A DNA stretch of 58,214 nt. Origin: Armatimonadota bacterium (GTDB lineage: Bacteria > Sysuimicrobiota > Sysuimicrobiia > Sysuimicrobiales > Humicultoraceae). Each line of letters begins with the position of its first letter. Position 1 is the stretch's first letter. This document shows positions 25,456 to 36,020 of the stretch, one piece after another. The notes below the pieces were generated by a model. That model did no database searches. It had not been told where the DNA came from and worked only from the letters and a program-made list of their open reading frames with translations. The position numbers and the translations under genes were made by a program. Location: contig JAVKIA010000016.1 in NCBI GenBank assembly GCA_031459715.1, forward strand, positions 1-58,214, read 5' to 3'.

Positions 25456-28040
25456 GGCCACAGCGCCTTACCGCAGCGATCCGGTGGGCCGGCGCCACCC
25501 TGCTGGGGCAGTTCACTCTGCTGGCCCTGCTGCTGACGGCGCTGGTGGCCGCGGGTTTCGCCTGGGTGGTCAGCAGGCAGATGGTGCAGGATGCCCTGGA
25601 CGACGCCGCCCGCCAGGCCGCCCGGGTGGTGCAGCTGCTCATCACCCCCCAGGTGAGGGCGGAGGACTTCGCGTTGCCGACTCCGATGCGGGTGGCTGCC
25701 TGGCGGGCACTTGTGGGCCGGGTGGTGGACGGGGCGGACATCGTGCGCATCAAGGTGTGGAATGCCCGCGGCCAGGTCGTCTACGCGGACGCGGCGGACC
25801 TGATCGGCCGGGTGTATCCTCTGCAGGAGAACAGCGGGCTGGCTGATGCCCTGCAGGGCCGCCTGGTCCACCAGGTCAGCGGGCTGGAGAAGGCGGAGAA
25901 CGCGCTGGAGCGCAACCACCGGCGGCTGCTGGAGGTTTACGTGCCGGTCACGCTACCCGACCGTGCCGGGGTGGCCGGGGTCTACGAGGTCTACCGCAGC
26001 TTCGCACCGCTGCAGGCCAGAATCGACAGGATCAGGCGGCTGGTCTGGGGAGGAGCGGCGGCCGCCTTCGCCCTACTCTACGCCTCCTGCTCCGCGCTGG
26101 TCAGCAGGGTCAGCCGTCGCTTCTCCGCTCTGGCCTCCTTTCCCGAGCAGAATCCCGATCCGGTGGTGGAGACCGACCTCTCCGGGAAGATCACCTACAT
26201 GAACCCCCAGGCCTCGGTGCAGCTTCCCGACCTGCGGGCCGCCGGCCGACAGCACCCCCTGCTGGCGGACCTGCCGGATCTGCTGGCGGAGCTGGGGGAT
26301 CGTGGCAAGGGGTCGCTCACCGGGGTGACCAAGGTGGGCGAGACGTTCTACCAGCGGTTCGTGTACCCGACGGGCCGTGATCGCCTGCGGCTGTACATCC
26401 ACGACGTCACAGAGGCCCTCCTGGCGGAGGAGCAGGTGCGCAAGCTCTCCCGGGCCTTGGAGCAGACGGCGGACCTGGTGATGATCACCAGTCGGGATGG
26501 TGCGATTGAGTACGTCAACGGTGCCTTTGAAGACGTGACCGGTTACGCCAGGGAAGAGGTTATCGGGCGGACTCCCCGGGTCCTCAAAGCCGAGGGAAAT
26601 GATCCGCGGGTTTACGAGCAGCTCTGGAAGACGATTCTCGCCGGTAAGGTCTTCCGCGGAGTATTGATGAACAGAAAGAAGAACGGTGAGGTGTTCTACG
26701 CGGACCAGACGATCACACCTGTCCTGGACGGGGACGGGAGCATCATGTACTTCGTCTCCACCGCCAGAGACGTCACCGCACGGCAGCAGGCGGAGGAGGA
26801 GATCCGCCGCCTGAACGCCCAGCTGGAGCAGCGGGTGGCCGAGCGCACCGCCGAGCTGCACCGGGCCAAGGAGGAGGCCGAGCGGGCCAGCGTGGCCAAA
26901 AGTGAGTTCCTCTCCCGGATGAGCCACGAGCTGCGCACGCCGCTGAACGCCATTCTGGGGTTCGCCCAGCTGCTGGAGATGGAACCGCTGCCGCCAGAGC
27001 AGCGGGAGAGCGTGGCCCACATCCTGCAGGGCGGCCGGCACCTGCTGCAGCTGATCAACGAGGTGCTGGACATCTCCCGCATCGAGGCCGGGCGGCTGAC
27101 CCTCTCCCCGGAGCCGGTGCACGCCGCGGGGGTCCTGCAGGAGGTAGTGGACCTCATCGCCCCCCTGGCGGCGCAGCGGGGCGTCCGCCTGGGCACCGAG
27201 GCCACAGACGGTGACGCCTTCGTCCTGGCCGACCTGCAGCGCCTGAAGCAGGTGCTGCTCAACCTCCTCTCCAACGCCGTGAAGTACAACGTCCCCGGCG
27301 GTAGCGTCACCGTCTCCTGCGAGCCCTCCCGCCACGGCTGGCTGCGTCTCAGCGTGCGGGACACCGGGCGGGGGATTCCCCCGGAGAAGCTGGACCAGGT
27401 CTTCGTCCCCTTCGCCCGCCTGGGGGCCGAGCAGACCGGGGTGGAGGGGACCGGCATCGGCCTGGCCCTTTCCAAGGGGCTGGTGGAGGTGATGGGCGGG
27501 GAGATGGGTGTGGAGAGCGTGGTGGCGAAGGGCAGCACCTTCTGGGTGGAGCTGCCCCTGGCCGAGAGCTCTCCGCAGCGCGGGGAGCGCATGTGGGAAG
27601 AGCCCTTCCCTCCCCCCGGGGAGGAGGCCCTCGGTGTCGCTGGCGGGACCATCCTGCACATCGAGGACAACCTGGCCAACGTGGAGCTGCTGCAGCGCAT
27701 TCTGGAGGACCGGCCGCGGATCCGGCTGCTGGCCGCCATGCAGGGCCGGATGGGGCTGGACCTGGCCCGGCAGCACCGCCCAGACCTGATCCTGCTGGAT
27801 GTGCACCTGCCCGACCTCTCCGGGGAGGAGGTCCTCCGCCGCCTGCAGGCCGACCCGCGAACCCGGTTTATCCCGGTCATCGTTATCACCGCCGACTCCA
27901 GCAGCGGACAGACAGAACGCCTCCTGGCCATAGGAGCCGCGGGCCTGTTGCGCAAGCCCGTGGAGATCCAGGAGCTGCTGCGCACCCTGGATGAGGCGTT
28001 GCGCCGGGTGAAGGGACGTCATGCCGGACCAGTCACGTAA
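25452..28040 (+). CDS. hybrid sensor histidine kinase with C-terminal receiver
   Basis: 862-residue membrane kinase. Transmembrane helices at about 17-40 and 197-218 flank an extracytoplasmic sensor. A degenerate PAS (about 225-320) is followed by a canonical PAS (333-450, with ITSRDGAIEYVNGAFEDVTG), HisKA with H492 in RMSHELRTPLNAILGF, an ATPase domain (DTGRGIPPEKL, GIGLALSKGL) and a receiver with D783 in LILLDVHLPDLSG. It should pass phosphate within itself or to the HD-GYP regulators downstream. The second PAS has noticeably lower GC than the rest. It starts inside the preceding stop (ATGA) and overlaps the next gene by 20 bp. Confidence 0.93.
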   Translation: MRPQRLTAAIRWAGATLLGQFTLLALLLTALVAAGFAWVVSRQMVQDALDDAARQAARVVQLLITPQVRAEDFALPTPMRVAAWRALVGRVVDGADIVRIKVWNARGQVVYADAADLIGRVYPLQENSGLADALQGRLVHQVSGLEKAENALERNHRRLLEVYVPVTLPDRAGVAGVYEVYRSFAPLQARIDRIRRLVWGGAAAAFALLYASCSALVSRVSRRFSALASFPEQNPDPVVETDLSGKITYMNPQASVQLPDLRAAGRQHPLLADLPDLLAELGDRGKGSLTGVTKVGETFYQRFVYPTGRDRLRLYIHDVTEALLAEEQVRKLSRALEQTADLVMITSRDGAIEYVNGAFEDVTGYAREEVIGRTPRVLKAEGNDPRVYEQLWKTILAGKVFRGVLMNRKKNGEVFYADQTITPVLDGDGSIMYFVSTARDVTARQQAEEEIRRLNAQLEQRVAERTAELHRAKEEAERASVAKSEFLSRMSHELRTPLNAILGFAQLLEMEPLPPEQRESVAHILQGGRHLLQLINEVLDISRIEAGRLTLSPEPVHAAGVLQEVVDLIAPLAAQRGVRLGTEATDGDAFVLADLQRLKQVLLNLLSNAVKYNVPGGSVTVSCEPSRHGWLRLSVRDTGRGIPPEKLDQVFVPFARLGAEQTGVEGTGIGLALSKGLVEVMGGEMGVESVVAKGSTFWVELPLAESSPQRGERMWEEPFPPPGEEALGVAGGTILHIEDNLANVELLQRILEDRPRIRLLAAMQGRMGLDLARQHRPDLILLDVHLPDLSGEEVLRRLQADPRTRFIPVIVITADSSSGQTERLLAIGAAGLLRKPVEIQELLRTLDEALRRVKGRHAGPVT

Positions 28041-29079
28041 GGACGCAGTCATCCTTGTGGTGGACGACGAGGAGACCAACGTCCTGCTGCTCAGGCGTCT
28101 GCTGGAGCAGGCCGGCTACAGCGGTGTGGTCAGCACCACGGATCCGCGTCAGGTCCTCCCGCTGCACCAGGCTCTTTCTCCCGACCTGATCCTGCTGGAC
28201 CTGCACATGCCCTACCTGGACGGCTTTGCAGTGCTGGAGCGCCTGAGGCCCCACATCCCTTCGGGGGACTACCTGCCGGTCGTTGTCCTTACCGCCGACA
28301 TCACCGCACAGGCCAAACGGCGGGCCCTGGCGGCGGGGGCCAAGGACTTCCTGACCAAACCCTTCGATGCCACGGAGGTCCTGCTGCGCGTCCACAACCT
28401 CCTGGAGACCCGGCGCCTGCACCGCCAGCTCCAGGAGCATAACCGCCTGCTGGAGGAGCGGGTGCGGGAGCGAACCCGCGAGCTGGAGGAGGCGCGCCTC
28501 GAGATCCTGGAGCGTCTGGCCCTGGCCGCCGAGTACCGCGACGACGCCACCGGGCAGCACACCCGGCGCGTCGGCCAGACCGCCGCCCTGCTGGCCCGGG
28601 CGCTGGGCCTTCCTCAGGACCAGGTGGAGCTGATCGGTCGGGCCGCCCCCCTGCACGACATCGGCAAGATCGGCGTTCCCGACGGGATCCTCCTCAAGCC
28701 AGGCCCGCTTACGGTGGAGGAGTTCGAGATGATGAAGGCCCACACCGTCATCGGCGCCAGGATCCTCTCCGGCAGCCGCTTCCCCCTCCTGCAGCTGGCC
28801 GAGGAGATCGCCCTCACCCACCACGAGCGGTGGGATGGCCTGGGCTACCCGCGCGGACTGCGCGGGGAGCAGATCCCGCTGGCCGGACGGATCGTGGCCG
28901 TGGCCGATGCCTTCGACGCCATGACCTCCGGCCGGCCGTACCGCTCGTCGCTCTCCCAGGAGGAGGTCTGGGCCCTGCTGTGGGCGGGCGCAGGGACCCA
29001 GTGGGAGGAACGGCTCGTCCGGGCGTTTGCCACCGTCATGTCCGCGCAGCGGCCAGTGGAGGGTGTCTATGCTGGATGA
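28021..29079 (+). CDS. response regulator with HD-GYP c-di-GMP phosphodiesterase domain
   Basis: 352-residue two-domain regulator. The receiver (residues 8-125) has VVDDEETN, phospho-acceptor D60 in LILLDLHMPYLDG and KPFD. A coiled-coil linker (about 130-165) leads to an HD-GYP domain (165-345) with H212-D213 in LHDIGKIGVP and HHERWDGLGYPRGL, so the GYP signature is intact. It should degrade c-di-GMP when phosphorylated by one of the kinases upstream. Overlaps both neighbours, indicating strict co-translation. Confidence 0.93.
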   Translation: MPDQSRKDAVILVVDDEETNVLLLRRLLEQAGYSGVVSTTDPRQVLPLHQALSPDLILLDLHMPYLDGFAVLERLRPHIPSGDYLPVVVLTADITAQAKRRALAAGAKDFLTKPFDATEVLLRVHNLLETRRLHRQLQEHNRLLEERVRERTRELEEARLEILERLALAAEYRDDATGQHTRRVGQTAALLARALGLPQDQVELIGRAAPLHDIGKIGVPDGILLKPGPLTVEEFEMMKAHTVIGARILSGSRFPLLQLAEEIALTHHERWDGLGYPRGLRGEQIPLAGRIVAVADAFDAMTSGRPYRSSLSQEEVWALLWAGAGTQWEERLVRAFATVMSAQRPVEGVYAG

Positions 29080-30175
29080 GAGCTTGCTGAAGGAGGCCCG
29101 CATCCTCATCGTCGACGACGAGAAGGCCAGCGTCCGCCTGCTGGAGCGCCTGCTGCGCGCCTGCGGGTGGACCAACCTGCGCAGCACCTACGATCCCCGG
29201 ACCGTCTGCACGCTGATCCGGACCTTCCGACCCGATCTGGTCCTGCTGGACCTGCACATGCCCCACGCCGGCGGCCTGGAGGTCCTGGCCCAGACCCGGG
29301 CGTTGCTCGCCGCCGAAGGGGTCCCCATCCTCATTGTCACAGCAGATGACGGGCCTGGGGTCAGGGAGACCGTGCTGGAGGCGGGGGCCAGCGACTTCAT
29401 GGCCAAACCCGTGGACGCTGCCGCTCTGCCGCTGCGGGTGCGCGCCCTCCTGGAGGCCCGCCTCCGCCGCCTGCAGGAACGCGGGCCCGGGCCATTCCTG
29501 GAAGAGTCCGCGGCATCCCGTGCGGAGGGGGTGGTGGCGCTGGACGTGGAAGCACTGGAGCGGCTGGCCCTGGTGGCGGAATACCGTGACGACCTCTCAC
29601 GCGGCGAGCACGTGAAGCGCGTGGGCCAGGCCTCCGCCCTCCTGGCGCGCGCCCTTGGCCTGGGGGAGGCCGAAGTGGAGATGGTGCGGCTGGCCGCCCC
29701 GCTGCACGATCTGGGGAAGATTGCCATTCCCGAGTCCATCCTGCTGAAGCCGGGCCGCCTGACGCCCGAGGAGCTGACGGTGATGCAGAGCCACACGTCC
29801 CTGGGCGCGGCCATGCTCGCGGGCAGCCGGCATCCCGTCCTGCAGATGGCCCAGCGGATCGCCCTCTCTCACCACGAACGATGGGACGGCGGGGGCTTTC
29901 CCCAGGGGCTGCGTGGTGAGGCCATTCCGCTGGAGGCGCGCATCGTGGCCGTAGCGGATGCCTTCGACGCCATGAGCGCCGACCGGCCGTACCGTCTCGC
30001 GCTCTCCTCGGAGGAGGTGTGGGAGATCCTGGTGGACGGAGCGGGGAAGCAGTGGGACCTGCAGGTGGTTGACGCTCTGGCCTCCCTGGTGGGCCCACAG
30101 GTGCAGGTGGACCGTCCCTTCGACCTGTCCGCCTTCCTCCAGCGGGAGCAGGCGATGCTGGACCCGCGGCGATAG
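29069..30175 (+). CDS. response regulator with HD-GYP-like domain (GFP variant)
   Basis: 368-residue paralogue of the preceding gene. The receiver has IVDDEKAS and D61 in LVLLDLHMPHAGG; the HD-GYP domain has H213-D214 in LHDLGKIAIP and the later signature HHERWDGGGFPQGL, in which the tyrosine of GYP is phenylalanine. Metal ligands look intact, so phosphodiesterase activity is plausible, perhaps with altered partner binding. ATG at 29069 overlaps the upstream stop by 11 bp. It is last in the coupled signalling run. Confidence 0.9.
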   Translation: MLDESLLKEARILIVDDEKASVRLLERLLRACGWTNLRSTYDPRTVCTLIRTFRPDLVLLDLHMPHAGGLEVLAQTRALLAAEGVPILIVTADDGPGVRETVLEAGASDFMAKPVDAAALPLRVRALLEARLRRLQERGPGPFLEESAASRAEGVVALDVEALERLALVAEYRDDLSRGEHVKRVGQASALLARALGLGEAEVEMVRLAAPLHDLGKIAIPESILLKPGRLTPEELTVMQSHTSLGAAMLAGSRHPVLQMAQRIALSHHERWDGGGFPQGLRGEAIPLEARIVAVADAFDAMSADRPYRLALSSEEVWEILVDGAGKQWDLQVVDALASLVGPQVQVDRPFDLSAFLQREQAMLDPRR

Positions 30176-30210
30176 GACAGCCCGGCTTGGGCTCACGCGC
30201 CTGTCACAAA

Positions 30211-30246
30211 CTCCCGCAGGTCTACAAGGAGCTCCCGCAGGTCTAA
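30211..30246. repeat. two direct repeats of 14 bases, 21 bases apart
   Basis: CTCCCGCAGGTCTA occurs at 30211-30224 and 30232-30245, each followed by C or A and then AA or AAA. The 21-bp spacing is two helical turns. They lie in the gap between the signalling run and the membrane PAS gene and could be tandem regulator sites. Confidence 0.7.
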
Positions 30247-30424
30247 AAGACCGCGGCAGTGGCATATACCGGAGTAGCCAGGGGACATCCGCCGGCGGGG
30301 CCGAACGCGCCGCCGGTGTCGCGGGGGAGGGGTCACCACGGGGGCTTTCGACCAGCGGAAGGCGCGAGGCGCCGAACGCAGCGCGATCTGGGTCCGGCTG
30401 GCCGTCGTCGCCCTGGGGACCTCC

Positions 30425-31696
30425 GTGTACATCACCGCCCTGGAGCGGGAGGGGAGAGTGGCTCCCCTGGCCTACCTGCTCCTGGGGCTGGCCTGGCTCT
30501 ACGGCCTCTCCGTGCCCATCGTCCAGCCCTACCTGCGCCTGCCGCAATTGGTCTCCAGCTACTTCATCTCGATTACCGACGCCCTGTTCACCATGCTCTG
30601 GCTCCTGGCCACCGGCGGGTTCCACTCCCCGTTCTACGTGGCCATCTACGCCGCGGTAGTCTCGGTGGCGCTGCGCTTCAACCTGCGGGAGACGGCCGTG
30701 GCCGCGGTGGTCTACGCGGCCAGCTACATGGTCCTGCTCTGGTCGCTGGGGCAGCTGGGGGACAACCTGCCGGAGGTGCTGGTCCGTGTAGGCTTTATCT
30801 TCGTCATCGCGGCCACCTCGGCACTGCTGGCGCGGGAGACCTTTCGCCAGGCACGGGCCAAGGCGCGGATGCGTACCCGCCTGATGCGGGAGCTGCGCCT
30901 GCGGGAAGAGCGCTACCGCGCTCTCTTTGAGCGGGTGCCCGTGCCCCTCTACCGCGCCGCCCCCGACGGGCGGATCCTGGATGCCAACGAGGCTCTGGTG
31001 GAGATGCTGGGCTACCCCGACCGGGACTCCCTGCTGGCCGCGACTGCCACAACACTGCACGTCGACCCCGATGCCCGGGCACTGTGGATGGCAACCATGG
31101 CCCAGCGCGGCATGGTGCGGGACTTCATCGCCCGGCTGCGGCGTTTCGATGGCTCGGTGATCTGGGTGCGGGATAACGCCCGGGAGGTGCGGGACGACCA
31201 CGGGCACGTGGTGGCCTACGAGGGCATGCTGGAGGACGTTACCGAGCGGCGGAAGGCGGAGGAAGTCCTGCGGCAAAACGAGGCCCGCCTCCGCCTGCTG
31301 GTCGACCAGATCCCCGCCCTGGTCTGGACCACCGACAGACAGATGCGGTTCACCTCCTTCCTGGGGGCGGGACTGGCGGTGCTGGGCCTTCGTCCCAACC
31401 AGTTGGTCGGCAGGACCCTGTACGAGGTCTTCGGCACCGGCGACCCGCGCCTCCCCGCCGTGGCCGCGCACCGCGAGGCGCTAGAAGGCAAGTCCGCGGC
31501 GTACGAGATGAAGTGGGGTGGGCGGGCCTACCAGGCGCACGTGGAGCCCCTGCGCGCTGCCGACGGCTCCATCGGCGGGACCACGGGGGTGGCTCTGGAC
31601 GTGACGGAGCGGGTGCGGACCGAGGAGCTGCGCCTGGCCCTGGAGGCGGCGCGCCGCCCCGCGGGCGGCTCTCTTTCCGGGCAGATCTCCTGGTAA
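30425..31696 (+). CDS. membrane PAS-PAS sensor protein without output domain
   Basis: 423 residues from the first usable start (GTG). About five membrane helices (residues 15-145) resemble 5-7TM sensor domains, then PAS 1 (about 165-285, ALFERVPVPLYRAAPDGRIL) and PAS 2 (295-405, LVDQIPALVWTTDRQMRF), then an abrupt end about 20 residues after DVTER where a kinase or GGDEF domain would follow. The GTG lies inside the first hydrophobic helix; the same frame is open back to 30278 with protein-like sequence but no ATG/GTG/TTG. Either the start is unusual, the 5' end is frameshifted near the G-runs at 30323-30332, or the gene is decaying. PAS 2 resembles PAS 1 of the kinase at 22244. Confidence 0.75.
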   Translation: MYITALEREGRVAPLAYLLLGLAWLYGLSVPIVQPYLRLPQLVSSYFISITDALFTMLWLLATGGFHSPFYVAIYAAVVSVALRFNLRETAVAAVVYAASYMVLLWSLGQLGDNLPEVLVRVGFIFVIAATSALLARETFRQARAKARMRTRLMRELRLREERYRALFERVPVPLYRAAPDGRILDANEALVEMLGYPDRDSLLAATATTLHVDPDARALWMATMAQRGMVRDFIARLRRFDGSVIWVRDNAREVRDDHGHVVAYEGMLEDVTERRKAEEVLRQNEARLRLLVDQIPALVWTTDRQMRFTSFLGAGLAVLGLRPNQLVGRTLYEVFGTGDPRLPAVAAHREALEGKSAAYEMKWGGRAYQAHVEPLRAADGSIGGTTGVALDVTERVRTEELRLALEAARRPAGGSLSGQISW

Positions 31697-31736
31697 GATC
31701 CCCAAGACAGATCCGGGCCAGGGGGAGTGTCCTCCC

Positions 31737-31765
31737 TTGACATGCGAACACATGTTCGACATAAT
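31737..31765 (+). promoter_or_regulatory. sigma-70 promoter with LexA (SOS) box in the spacer
   Basis: TTGACA (31737-31742), 17-nt spacer, CATAAT (31760-31765). The spacer contains CGAACACATGTTCG (31745-31758), perfect inverted arms CGAAC/GTTCG around ACAT, matching the Gram-positive-type LexA consensus CGAACRNRYGTTYC at all but the last base. A repressor bound here would block RNA polymerase directly. It lies 27 nt upstream of the RecA-fold gene and is the only promoter seen for the three-gene cassette. Confidence 0.88.
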
Positions 31766-31791
31766 GGAAATGCCGACGGGAGCCGGAAAGC

Positions 31792-32427
31792 ATGCGGGAC
31801 CTGCTGTCGCTGTGGCCATCGGCTCGGGGACTGTGGCCGTCGCCTCTAGGACAGTCGCCATCGTCCCCAGGGCTGGTCGTGCTCACCGGCCAGGATGCCT
31901 GCCTCACCGTGGGGCTGCTGCTGGCGCTTCGGGGGACGGCCACCGGACGCCCGCTGCTCGTCGTTGACGGAGCCAATGCCTTTGACCCCTACCTGATCGC
32001 TGACCTAGCCCGCCGGCAGGACCTGGAGCCGCAGTGCCTGCTCGAGCGGATCTGCATCTCCCGGATCTTCACCTGCTATCAGCTGGAGGCGCTGCTGGAG
32101 GAGCGACTCCCGCACCTGCGGGACCGGCTCGCCCCCTCCGGCCTCTTCCTGTCGGGGCCGCTGGAGCCGCTGCTCGATGAAGAGCTCCCAAGGGAGGAGG
32201 CGGAGCGCGTCTTCCGCCGGATCCTGAGCGCGCTTGACCGCGTGCTGCAGTGGCCCTGGACCGTGGTCGCCGCCTGCCCCGACAGCTCCCGTCCTCCGCC
32301 GGGCCGCGAGCACTTCCTGCCTCAGGTGAAGCGGCGGGCGCGGCTCCTCCTCCGGGTCACGGTGGAGGGGGAGGGGTGGCGGATCGACGCAGGGGCGGGG
32401 GGCCCACCCGGGTGTGGCAGCCCGTAG
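31792..32427 (+). CDS. RecA/RadA-fold protein lacking a P-loop (ImuA-like role inferred)
   Basis: 211-residue protein with the pattern of the RecA/Rad51 core: LVVLTGQDACLTVGLLLAL where the Walker A strand-loop-helix should be, then LLVVDGANAFDPYLIADLA and RICISRIFTCYQLEALLEE, which match the RadA block after Walker A. The P-loop (residues 33-39, GQDACLT) has no lysine and the later Walker B strand GLFLSGPLEPLL has no aspartate, so ATP hydrolysis is unlikely. First gene behind the SOS box and followed by a small protein and a DNA polymerase. By analogy with ImuA it may bridge RecA filaments or the clamp to the polymerase; this is inference. Confidence 0.75.
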   Translation: MRDLLSLWPSARGLWPSPLGQSPSSPGLVVLTGQDACLTVGLLLALRGTATGRPLLVVDGANAFDPYLIADLARRQDLEPQCLLERICISRIFTCYQLEALLEERLPHLRDRLAPSGLFLSGPLEPLLDEELPREEAERVFRRILSALDRVLQWPWTVVAACPDSSRPPPGREHFLPQVKRRARLLLRVTVEGEGWRIDAGAGGPPGCGSP

Positions 32428-32469
32428 GCGTCCTTATGGCCCGGCGGTGGCGATGAAGGGAGGTTGAGG

Positions 32470-32796
32470 ATGGGACGAACCGTGGCCACAATGACGCAGG
32501 TGGTCGATCAGGAGGCGGCCAGCTTCAGCCGGTTCCGCCGCGCCCTGCGCAGGGAGGACCAGGAGGTCTTTGACCTCCTTTTTGCCGCGGCCCGGCACCA
32601 CGCCGCGCCCGCCGCCTACCAGTCGCATGCCTCCCCCTTCGAGGTGATCCTGCTGGCGATGCTGCTGGAGCTGGGGAAGGCGGTGGTGGGGCTGCAGCGC
32701 CGTCTGGCGGAGCTGGAGCAGGTGCCTATCCTCCCCGCTCCCTATGCCTCCGGGGCCGTGCCTGCTCCCCACCCCCCACGTGCTCGGGGGCCGTGA
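32470..32796 (+). CDS. small helical protein of the SOS polymerase cassette, unknown function
   Basis: 108-residue protein, mostly alpha-helical by composition, with FRRALRREDQEVFDLLFAAA and PFEVILLAMLLELGKAVVG (hydrophobic but amphipathic, probably not membrane) and a proline-rich C-terminus. No motif recognised. ATG at 32470 has GGGAGG 6 nt upstream; TTG at 32464 is an alternative. The gene is 42 bp after the RecA-fold gene and ends 10 bp before the chosen polymerase start, so all three look co-transcribed. It may be an accessory subunit of the polymerase. Confidence 0.75.
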   Translation: MGRTVATMTQVVDQEAASFSRFRRALRREDQEVFDLLFAAARHHAAPAAYQSHASPFEVILLAMLLELGKAVVGLQRRLAELEQVPILPAPYASGAVPAPHPPRARGP

Positions 32797-32806
32797 GGCG
32801 GGACCG

Positions 32807-35146
32807 GTGCGGGGCTGGCTCTTCGACCTCTACCCTGCCGCCGAGGGGATGGTCCTGTGGTTCCTCGACGCGGAGGGCCATCCCCACCGGCTGCTGGCGG
32901 AATACCATCCGGCCTTCTACGCCGCGGGTCCCCGGAGGGCACTGGACCGCCTGGGCCCTCTCCTGGAGGCGCGGGGTATCCCTGCGGACCTGACCCCGGT
33001 GGTCCGCCGGGAGCTTTTCAGCGGCGCCGAGCTCCCGGTGCTCCGTGTGGCGGTGCGTCGCCCGCTGCACTTCTCGGCGGCCGTGCGGCAGGCGGCCGCG
33101 CTGCGCCCCCTCACCCTCTACACCTGCGACCTCAGTCCCGCGCAGCTGTTTCTCTATGAGCGCGACTTCTTTCCCCTCGGCGAGTACGACCTGGTGGCGG
33201 AGGACGGCGTGCTGCGCGAGGCAATTCCGCGGTCCCGTCCGGAGGACCTGGAGTACACGCTTCCCCCGCTGGTGGTGATGCGGCTGCGCCTCGACGGCGA
33301 CCCGGTTAACCCCAATCACGGATGGCGCGGGGAGCTGGTGGTGGCGGTGGAGGGGGAGGAGGTGGTGCTGAGCGGAGAACGTCCGGAGGACGCCGTCCGC
33401 AGCCTCAACCGGATGCTCTCCCGCTATGACCCCGACGTCCTGCTCTCGGAGTGGGGCGACACCTTCCTGCTGCCGCGGCTGCTGCGGCTCAGCCGGCAGA
33501 CGGGGCAACCGCTGCTGCTCAACCGGGACCCGCACGCCAGGGTCGCCCGCCGCCGCGGACGGTCGTACCTCACCTACGGCAGGACCGTGTACGCCGCCGG
33601 CGCCCACCTCCTTCACGGGCGGTGGCACCTGGACCTGCGCAACTCCTTCATCTATAGCGAGTCGGAGATGGCCGGCCTGCTGGAGATCGCCCGTCTGGCC
33701 CGCCTGCCGGTACAGCGTCTGGCCCGCACCTCCACGGGCACAGCCATCTCCTCCATGCAGCTGGCCCGCGCCGTGCAGCAGCACATCCTGGTGCCCTGGC
33801 ACAAGAGCGAACCGGAGGCCTTCAAGACCGCAGCCGAGCTGCTGCTGGCGGACAAGGGGGGCCTCACCTACCAGCCGCTGGTCGGCGTCTACGAGGGTGT
33901 GGGGGAGCTGGACTTCTCCTCCATGTATCCCACGATCATGGCGCGGTTCAACATCTCGCCGGAGACCGTCAACTGCTCCTGCTGCCGGACGGGAGAGGTC
34001 GTCCCCGAGATCGGGCACACGGTCTGCCGGCGGCGCCGCGGTCTGGTGCCGCAGGTGCTGGACCACCTTCTGGAGCGGCGGGCGTACTACAAGCGGCGAA
34101 AGCGGGAGGCCAGTGGCGGCGAGCGGGCGATCTACGACCAGCGGCAGACGGCGCTGAAGTGGTGCCTGGTCACGTCATTCGGCTACCTGGGGTATCGCAA
34201 CGCCCGTTACGGGCGCATCGAAGCGCACGAGGCCACCACCGCCTACGCCCGCGAGATGCTGCTGCAGGCCAAGGAGGTGGCGGAGGCCCGGGGATTCCGC
34301 ATGCTGCACGCCATCGTGGATTCCATGTGGCTGCAGCGGCCGGGGGCGGGGCCGGCTGCGTACGAGACCCTGGCCCGGGAGATCCAGGCGGCCACGAAGC
34401 TACCGATCTTCGTGGAGGGGGTCTACCGCTGGATCGCCTTCCTTCCCTCCAAAACGCATCCCGGTGTGGGCGTCCCCAATCGCTATATGGGCGTCTTCAC
34501 CGACGGAAGCACGAAGGTGCGCGGCATTGAGGTGCGTCGCTCCGACGTCCCGCCGCTGGTGGAGGAGATGCAGGCGCGGATGCTGCAGGAGATGTTTGCC
34601 GCACCCACGGTGGCGGCCCTGCAGGAGAGGCTGCCGGAGATCCTGGCGGTGCTGGAGGGGGCGCTGCTGCGGGTGCGGGAGGGCCATATCCGTCCCTGGG
34701 ACCTGGCCCTCACCGCCACCATCTCCCGGAGGCCGGAGGCGTATCGCAGCAACCACCCGATCGCCCTGGCCGCGCGGATGCTGGCCCGAAGCGGGATTCA
34801 CCTCCATCCCGGCGAGGCGGTGCAGTACGTGGTCACAGACACAGACGCCAGGAACCCGGAAGACCGCGTCCGCCCCCTGACCCTGCTGGGGCCGGCGTGG
34901 TCCTACGATAGGGACTACTACGCCGAGCTTCTACTCCGCGCCGCCGGGACCGTCCTGGAGCCCTTCGGCTACTCGTGGCGCCGTCTGCGGGAATCCGTCA
35001 CTCCCGCGCCGTCAGGTCCGATTCGGCGTGGGGGGCCTCCGGCCCCACCAGGTGCGCCGCGGGGCCGTGCAGGCGCAGGCGCTGCGCCAGCATCATCTGC
35101 AGCTCCCGCGCGTTGCGGGCAGAGTTCCCGCGGAAGTGGTTGTTGA
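32807..35146 (+). CDS. family B DNA polymerase, PolB2-like, with altered motif C and degenerate exonuclease
   Basis: 779-residue family B polymerase. Motif A is GELDFSSMYPTIM (D369), motif B is ALKWCLVTSFGYLGYRNARYG with K451, and motif C is AIVDSMWL (D505), where the usual Asp-Thr-Asp has Ile-Val-Asp. The 3'-5' exonuclease looks decayed: no Asp-x-Glu at Exo I (MRLRLDGDP), a changed Exo II (DPDVLLSEWGDTF), and Glu instead of Asp in Exo III (YSESE). A Cys cluster (CSCC, later HTVC) lies after motif A. This resembles the PolB2/Dpo2 group rather than E. coli Pol II. GTG at 32807 has GAGG 8 nt upstream; ATG 32744 and GTG 32780 are alternatives. The last 50 residues overlap DUF72 antisense. Confidence 0.88.
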   Translation: MRGWLFDLYPAAEGMVLWFLDAEGHPHRLLAEYHPAFYAAGPRRALDRLGPLLEARGIPADLTPVVRRELFSGAELPVLRVAVRRPLHFSAAVRQAAALRPLTLYTCDLSPAQLFLYERDFFPLGEYDLVAEDGVLREAIPRSRPEDLEYTLPPLVVMRLRLDGDPVNPNHGWRGELVVAVEGEEVVLSGERPEDAVRSLNRMLSRYDPDVLLSEWGDTFLLPRLLRLSRQTGQPLLLNRDPHARVARRRGRSYLTYGRTVYAAGAHLLHGRWHLDLRNSFIYSESEMAGLLEIARLARLPVQRLARTSTGTAISSMQLARAVQQHILVPWHKSEPEAFKTAAELLLADKGGLTYQPLVGVYEGVGELDFSSMYPTIMARFNISPETVNCSCCRTGEVVPEIGHTVCRRRRGLVPQVLDHLLERRAYYKRRKREASGGERAIYDQRQTALKWCLVTSFGYLGYRNARYGRIEAHEATTAYAREMLLQAKEVAEARGFRMLHAIVDSMWLQRPGAGPAAYETLAREIQAATKLPIFVEGVYRWIAFLPSKTHPGVGVPNRYMGVFTDGSTKVRGIEVRRSDVPPLVEEMQARMLQEMFAAPTVAALQERLPEILAVLEGALLRVREGHIRPWDLALTATISRRPEAYRSNHPIALAARMLARSGIHLHPGEAVQYVVTDTDARNPEDRVRPLTLLGPAWSYDRDYYAELLLRAAGTVLEPFGYSWRRLRESVTPAPSGPIRRGGPPAPPGAPRGRAGAGAAPASSAAPARCGQSSRGSGC

Positions 35147-36020
35147 ACATCAGATAGAGCCGGCGCACGTCGCCGGCCAGCCGCTCTGCGGTCTCTACCC
35201 AGGGGCGCAGCTCATCGGAGGAGTACAGGTAGTCGTAGGCCCGGGCCGTGGAGACGCCATGCTCCGCCAGCGCCGGGTTGCGTCCGTGGAACCGGACCAG
35301 GCTCCAGTCAGTGGTCGTCTCCACCAGGGGGGCAGGGAGGTAGCGCACCGGCGCCAGGTCGGCGATGACGTGGGCGAAGCCATGCTCCCGCAGGTAGCCC
35401 AGCAGAGTGCGCCGGGCTTTGCCCTCCAGCCACTCCCGGTGCCGCACCTCGATGGCCACGGGCCAGTTCTCCAGATAAAGGGCCCAGGCATCCAGGTAGT
35501 GGAAGAGCTCCTGGGTGAAGCCCTGCCCCTTGGGGAACTGGAAGAGGACGTACCCCAGCCGCTCCCGCAGGCGCAGCGCGTCCACGAAGGCGGCGAAGTA
35601 GTCCCACACCGCTGTGAGGATCTCCTCGGGCAGGCGCATAGGGGAGAGGCTCTTCAGCACCTGCAGCGGTTTGGGCAGCAGCGGGAAGATCCCCCGGGGC
35701 AGGCGCGCCGGGTCGCTGTCGTGCCAGGTGAGCCAGGCGAAGGCTTTGACGTTGAAGACGAACGGGGGCGGGACGGTCTCCGCCCACTGCACCGCCCGCT
35801 CCGCCGGCTGCAGCGCGTGGTAAGAGGCGTCCACCTCTACGGTGGGGAAGACGCTGGCGTAGTAGCGCAGCCGGGCGCGGGGCCGGGTGCGCACCCCTTC
35901 GGGGTAGAACTCGCCCGCGAAGCCGGGGTCAGCCCAGGAGCAGGTCCCTGTATAGATTTCGCAACCGTGATAGACCAGGGGCGCCGCGGGAGCACCGGCG
36001 GCATCGGGAACTGGGCCCAT
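34998..36020 (-). CDS. DUF72 (YecE) family protein
   Basis: 340-residue TIM-barrel-like protein of unknown biochemical role. Family segments include IYTGTCSWADPGFAGEFYPEG, YYASVFPTVEVDASYHAL, FNVKAFAWLTWH, YVLFQFPKGQ, VAIEVRHREW, and the C-terminal LYLMFNNHFRGNSARNA. Length is above the 240-290 norm because of insertions around residues 105-125. It runs convergent to the polymerase gene and overlaps it by 149 bp. The ATG at 36020 lies 10 nt after a TACCAT -10-like hexamer on the minus strand. Confidence 0.92.
   Translation of the reverse strand: MGPVPDAAGAPAAPLVYHGCEIYTGTCSWADPGFAGEFYPEGVRTRPRARLRYYASVFPTVEVDASYHALQPAERAVQWAETVPPPFVFNVKAFAWLTWHDSDPARLPRGIFPLLPKPLQVLKSLSPMRLPEEILTAVWDYFAAFVDALRLRERLGYVLFQFPKGQGFTQELFHYLDAWALYLENWPVAIEVRHREWLEGKARRTLLGYLREHGFAHVIADLAPVRYLPAPLVETTTDWSLVRFHGRNPALAEHGVSTARAYDYLYSSDELRPWVETAERLAGDVRRLYLMFNNHFRGNSARNARELQMMLAQRLRLHGPAAHLVGPEAPHAESDLTARE

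Follow-up and report, generated by a model that had tools for sequence, protein, structure and literature searches.

The window that we analysed, a 58,214-nucleotide stretch of DNA from a bacterium of the phylum Sysuimicrobiota, holds a conserved and genuine gene encoding a protein with the RadA/Rad51 core fold and neither Walker motif. The gene is iRadA, which belongs to an already published family, and it is the first of an iRadA-PPB2-PolB2 operon (Table 1). With a probability that we put at roughly 0.85, this iRadA is a descendant of RadA/Rad51 that lacks an ATP site and serves as the docking subunit of the B-family polymerase PolB2, within a LexA-controlled translesion complex that also includes PPB2. 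The operon was described by Makarova et al. 2014 (PMC4104785), and Timinskas et al. 2025 (PMC11791011) modelled its products as a complex for translesion synthesis, the "PolB2 mutasome". While the protein family itself is thus published, the phylum, the arrangement of the operator, the resemblance of a PolB2 motif to FxxA and a radical-SAM lead are new here. So far, the PolB2 mutasome was known chiefly from archaea and its models were purely in silico; the analysis extends it to genomes of an uncultured phylum.

Table 1. Features of the iRadA operon and its surroundings, with positions in the window
Feature	Position	Strand	Basis or remark
Sigma-70-type promoter of the operon, TTGACA-17-CATAAT (11/12)	31737..31765	+	only promoter-like site in 31600-31900
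LexA-type operator CGAACACATGTTCG, within the promoter spacer	31745..31758	.	only GAACNNNNGTTC in the window
iRadA, RadA/Rad51-fold protein with inactive nucleotide site	31792..32427	+	211 aa
Degenerate Walker A, GQDACLTV, iRadA residues 33-40	31888..31911	+	alignment of homologues
Rad51-like segment, iRadA residues 55-105, most conserved stretch of the family	31954..32106	+	profile alignments to RadA, DMC1
Sequence matching the conserved C-terminal tail of iRadA, in the next frame (TRVWQPVGVLMARRWR*)	32406..32456	+	comparison with the RRWW tails of relatives
PPB2 (partner of PolB2, arCOG07300 type), N-terminus MGRT	32470..32796	+	beside iRadA in relatives
PolB2, B-family polymerase	32744..35146	+	PF00136, E=4.5e-33
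PolB2 FKTA, FxxA-like putative iRadA-docking motif, residues 360-363	33821..33832	+	homologue comparison
PolB2 D-K motif, residues 370-371	33851..33856	+	D[KRQ]GGL conserved in all homologues
PolB2 motif C, IVD, first Asp of DxD replaced	34313..34321	+	sequence comparison
DUF72 gene, convergent neighbour of PolB2	34998..36020	-	PF01904, E=2.3e-52

iRadA has the RadA/Rad51 core fold and no Walker motifs

Taken singly, the iRadA sequence matches Pfam Rad51 with an E-value of 0.013, under the curated cut-off, and the same weak match recurs in 16 of 19 homologues. A family profile built from 30 homologues matches chains of RadA, RAD51 and DMC1, with a best E-value of 1.6e-7. Consistent with this, an AlphaFold2 model of the protein (pLDDT 86, pTM 0.84) retrieves RAD51, RadA and DMC1 structures in Foldseek, with E-values down to 8e-10 and a TM-score of about 0.68. 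Conservation rules out a chance similarity to Rad51, and KaiC was discarded as an identity because the profile search returned one KaiC chain only, with an E-value of 0.72. An earlier note, made from the letters of this DNA, had recognised a protein of the RecA superfamily with a RadA/Rad51 core pattern; family profile and Foldseek agree, and the comparison with RecA, RadA, ImuA and KaiC that it had proposed places the protein within the RecA fold, on the side of RadA/Rad51/DMC1 and not of ImuA, bacterial RecA or KaiC. The N-terminal helical domain of RadA is absent from the 211-residue protein, the first structured element of the model being the core strand formed by residues 27-33.

The nucleotide site is lost. 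At the P-loop, where GxxxxGK[ST] is expected, iRadA reads GQDACLTV, and GK[ST] is absent from this position in all 30 homologues of the alignment, which come from several bacterial phyla. A single P-loop glycine (G33) is kept in all of them. At the end of the Walker B strand, the same alignment shows a small or aliphatic residue instead of the Asp, followed by an invariant glycine (G122). Since the 30 homologues have no GK[ST] and the Walker B Asp is replaced, the loss is ancestral to the iRadA family and not a local mutation. The earlier note's reading of both motifs as missing is thus borne out, no homologue having an intact Walker A. An active RadA/Rad51 recombinase was rejected as an identity because the protein has neither the Walker A nor the Walker B motif needed for ATP-dependent filaments.

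Homologues of iRadA are found in 20 of 43 genomes of the phylum. When the gene is compared with its closest relative (L023; 164 codons, 72% identity), differences fall 29, 22 and 75 times on first, second and third codon positions, a pattern that fits a protein under purifying selection. Ten residues are invariant in the alignment across phyla. These observations bear on whether iRadA might be a relic without function, a RadA paralogue in decay that is retained by its position in the polB2 operon alone, as its patchy distribution and the out-of-frame C-terminal tail of this copy could suggest. We give this very little credence, since the codon pattern, the invariant residues and the conservation of both operon and operator argue against decay.

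As for the tail, relatives terminate in ...WxPQxGxxxxRRWW. In the window it is shifted to the next frame after a G/C-rich run, and the annotated end of the protein is GGPPGCGSP. The apparent frameshift lies in the region 32380-32456 and may be either an assembly error or real, so that this copy of the gene may be damaged or mis-assembled. In the only genome of the same genus, the sequence stops short of iRadA.

The operon and its polymerase

In all sufficiently long loci of Sysuimicrobiota, Nitrospirae, Nitrospinae and Deltaproteobacteria, iRadA, PPB2 and PolB2 are adjacent and in the same order. Among the loci compared, all uncut ones have PPB2 together with iRadA, and most also have PolB2. 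Homologues of PolB2 are present in 22 of the 43 genomes of the phylum, and the operon is absent from about half of them. Two genomes (G004 and G018) have PolB2 with no match to iRadA, but a real loss is not supported, since their contigs end within ~350 bases upstream of PolB2. That PolB2 always directly follows PPB2 is contradicted by four Methylomirabilota loci (L059, L060, L061 and L071), in which other genes intervene after iRadA-PPB2. PolB2 lies further along the iRadA contig in Methylomirabilota genomes G044 and G048; it follows at a distance of ~17 kb in L060 and ~4.5 kb in L071. It was not found in the Methylomirabilota MAGs G043 and G045, which carry loci L059 and L061.

The earlier note had proposed a structural RecA-like partner rather than a recombinase, next to a PolB2-type polymerase, which is supported and corresponds to the published iRadA family. 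It had also compared the protein to ImuA and to inactive RadA paralogues; the second likeness stands, and the first holds for function only. The ImuA-ImuB-DnaE2 cassette likewise combines a RecA-fold accessory with SOS-controlled error-prone synthesis, and iRadA might be such an accessory of an ImuB/DnaE2 mutasome that sits beside a PolB gene by chance. The shared logic of a RecA-fold protein without ATP site, SOS control and an error-prone polymerase speaks for it, as does the presence in this genome of a divergent Y-family gene and a LexA-boxed DnaE2-like gene. Nevertheless, we consider it highly improbable: profiles and fold match RadA/Rad51/DMC1 and not ImuA or RecA, the constant companion of iRadA is PPB2, and the Y-family and DnaE2-like genes lie on another contig (C56). 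Moreover, no pairing of iRadA with ImuB/DnaE2 was seen in the loci compared and no significant ImuA match in the profile search, and the polymerases belong to other families.

An inactive RadA acting as partner of PolB2, the reading that we prefer, is also in line with the features of the two downstream proteins. All PPB2 copies with a complete N-terminus begin with MGRT (or VGRT as listed). The PPB2 monomer was modelled with low confidence as three helices (pTM 0.41), and a fold search from this model gave nothing useful (best E=5.7). PolB2 has an intact motif A (DFSSMYP) and a motif C of the [ILT]-x-D type; the first Asp of motif C is replaced in most PolB2 proteins (PMC11791011), in which the D(K/R) motif has also been described (PMC11791011). 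A GTG at 32807, corresponding to residue 22, better matches the starts of homologues. The DUF72 gene is close to PolB2 in many relatives, and DUF72 has been reported to be enriched near polB2 (PMC11791011). Taken together, the operon resembles the PolB2 mutasome in its bacterial gene order, its inactive RadA without N-terminal domain, the MGRT arm of PPB2, a PolB2 in which DxD lacks its first Asp, the D(K/R) motif, the DUF72 neighbour and a link to LexA. It differs in that lexA is not adjacent and the promoter spacer contains a LexA-type operator instead, in the out-of-frame tail of iRadA, and in the intein-like insertions in PolB2 of some relatives.

These insertions are in frame at motif B, at the equivalent of residue 477, in L028, L035, L039 and L036; they begin with CLDG, and their last residue is an Asn that precedes S/C/N. 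In L028 the insertion is ~470 aa long with LAGLIDADG-like motifs, and PolB2 in the window has no such insertion. At the 3' end of PolB2 (34990-35146), the window's reading frame continues for ~50 codons beyond the usual end, a position at which a TGA is present in many relatives, and it shares 149 bp with the convergent DUF72 gene. Only a fraction of PolB2 mutasome members has been described with a beta-clamp-binding motif near the C-terminus of iRadA or PolB2; judged by eye, the tails of our iRadA and PolB2 homologues show no clear QLxLF.

A putative docking motif in PolB2

The most conserved stretch of iRadA, residues 55-105, contains six of the ten invariant residues (D59, N62, P66, R91, T94 and Q97). 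In RAD51, the matching region is where the FxxA oligomerisation motif docks, and we take F64, P66 and L84 of iRadA to be the counterparts of F166, P168 and L186 in the FxxA pocket of RAD51. On the side of the polymerase, EAFKTAAE occurs just ahead of the D(K/R) motif, and FK[TS][AG] is present in every homologue that covers the site. Judged from sequence, this motif resembles FxxA and would fit the published docking model, in which the proteins form a heteropentamer with a PPB2 trimer and PolB2 contacts iRadA in the manner of one Rad51 subunit contacting the next (PMC11791011). That PolB2 has a motif resembling an oligomerisation motif was proposed in the same paper, in the main text of which the term FxxA is absent. 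The published model can be tested through FK[TS][AG] as an iRadA docking peptide.

The fold matches also raise the alternative that iRadA regulates filaments, capping or blocking those of a recombinase, PolB2 being merely co-expressed, since the best matches include complexes of RAD51 paralogues (9q29), which cap RAD51 filaments. We regard this as very unlikely. The host recombinase is a bacterial RecA, whose oligomerisation motif is unlike FxxA, whereas the FxxA-like motif is conserved in PolB2.

For docking, we propose the following arrangement. No longer having the residues that bind and hydrolyse ATP, nor its N-terminal domain, but still having the FxxA-receiving surface of Rad51, iRadA would serve the polymerase as a fixed subunit for docking rather than work as a recombinase. 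The FKTA motif, located just before palm motif A, would insert into this surface, the MGRT arm of PPB2 would lie close to the DNA, in the cleft that separates PolB2 from iRadA, and the resulting complex would extend mismatched or lesion-containing primer ends. LexA bound in the promoter spacer would block transcription of the operon until cleaved upon DNA damage. Two known systems are comparable. The Dpo2 operon of Sulfolobus is composed of the same three families, and Dpo2 is a DNA-damage-induced translesion extender polymerase (PMC11791011), but it is archaeal and has another regulator. In Pol V (UmuC-UmuD'2-RecA), the polymerase docks a RecA/Rad51 protein via an oligomerisation-like motif and an arm of the small subunit is near the active site (PMC11791011), but the polymerase is of the Y family, RecA is active and there is no PPB2.

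The LexA operator and other LexA-boxed genes

The sigma-70-like promoter of the operon ends 26 bp upstream of the iRadA ATG, and shuffles of 31600-31900 yield 0.0 expected promoters. Of 21 related loci, 18 have a LexA-type box at the iRadA start, where Markov-shuffled upstream regions give an expectation of 0.002 loci; the three related loci L036, L037 and L039 have no exact box. The genome contains 11 sites of the pattern CGAACNNNNGTTCG, compared with two for the reversed pattern. Four of the 11 lie in a promoter scoring at least 9/12, namely those of lexA (TIGR00498, E=8e-58), the iRadA operon, a DnaE2-like gene and a radical-SAM gene, while the other seven have no surrounding promoter and are probably chance matches. 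There are two LexA-like genes in this genome (G000:C5:31281 in L086 and G000:C11:31602 in L087), and a CGAACN4GTTCG box precedes only the one on C11.

Enrichment of lexA near bacterial polB2 has been reported (PMC11791011, PMC4104785); a search confined to main text found no description of LexA operators at polB2. Direct LexA control of a bacterial B-family translesion polymerase is a second testable point. Upstream of the operon (28021-31696), a large PAS histidine kinase is followed by two tandem response-regulator-like reading frames and then by a PAS protein (30425-31696), for which Pfam matches PAS domains only and no kinase domain.

The LexA-boxed radical-SAM protein is of the Rv2578c/PA0069 type (E 2e-89), with a faint likeness to spore photoproduct lyase. 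Exact LexA boxes are present in 19 of 25 radical-SAM loci of the phylum (L081, 1534-2517, G000:C11:59003; and L103-L127), also in genomes without PolB2. The family also occurs after iRadA-PPB2 in three Methylomirabilota loci (L059, 6244-7383; L060, 4383-5468; L061, 6081-7427). These two independent associations, with LexA boxes and with iRadA-PPB2, suggest a role of the radical-SAM family in DNA repair. The shared operator hints that genes of the PA0069/Rv2578c type are possibly unrecognised SOS repair genes; a literature search for Rv2578c with DNA damage found no paper. At slightly better than even odds, we favour a scheme in which the PolB2 mutasome of this phylum is wired directly to the SOS response by the LexA operator in its promoter spacer, together with the DnaE2-like polymerase and, as a repair partner, the radical-SAM family found beside iRadA-PPB2 in Methylomirabilota.

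The divergent Y-family (ImuB-like) gene and the DnaE2-like polymerase gene share one contig (G000:C56, L094; 3890-5068 and 8573-10561). The latter stands behind its LexA-boxed promoter, and a transposase-like reading frame separates the two.
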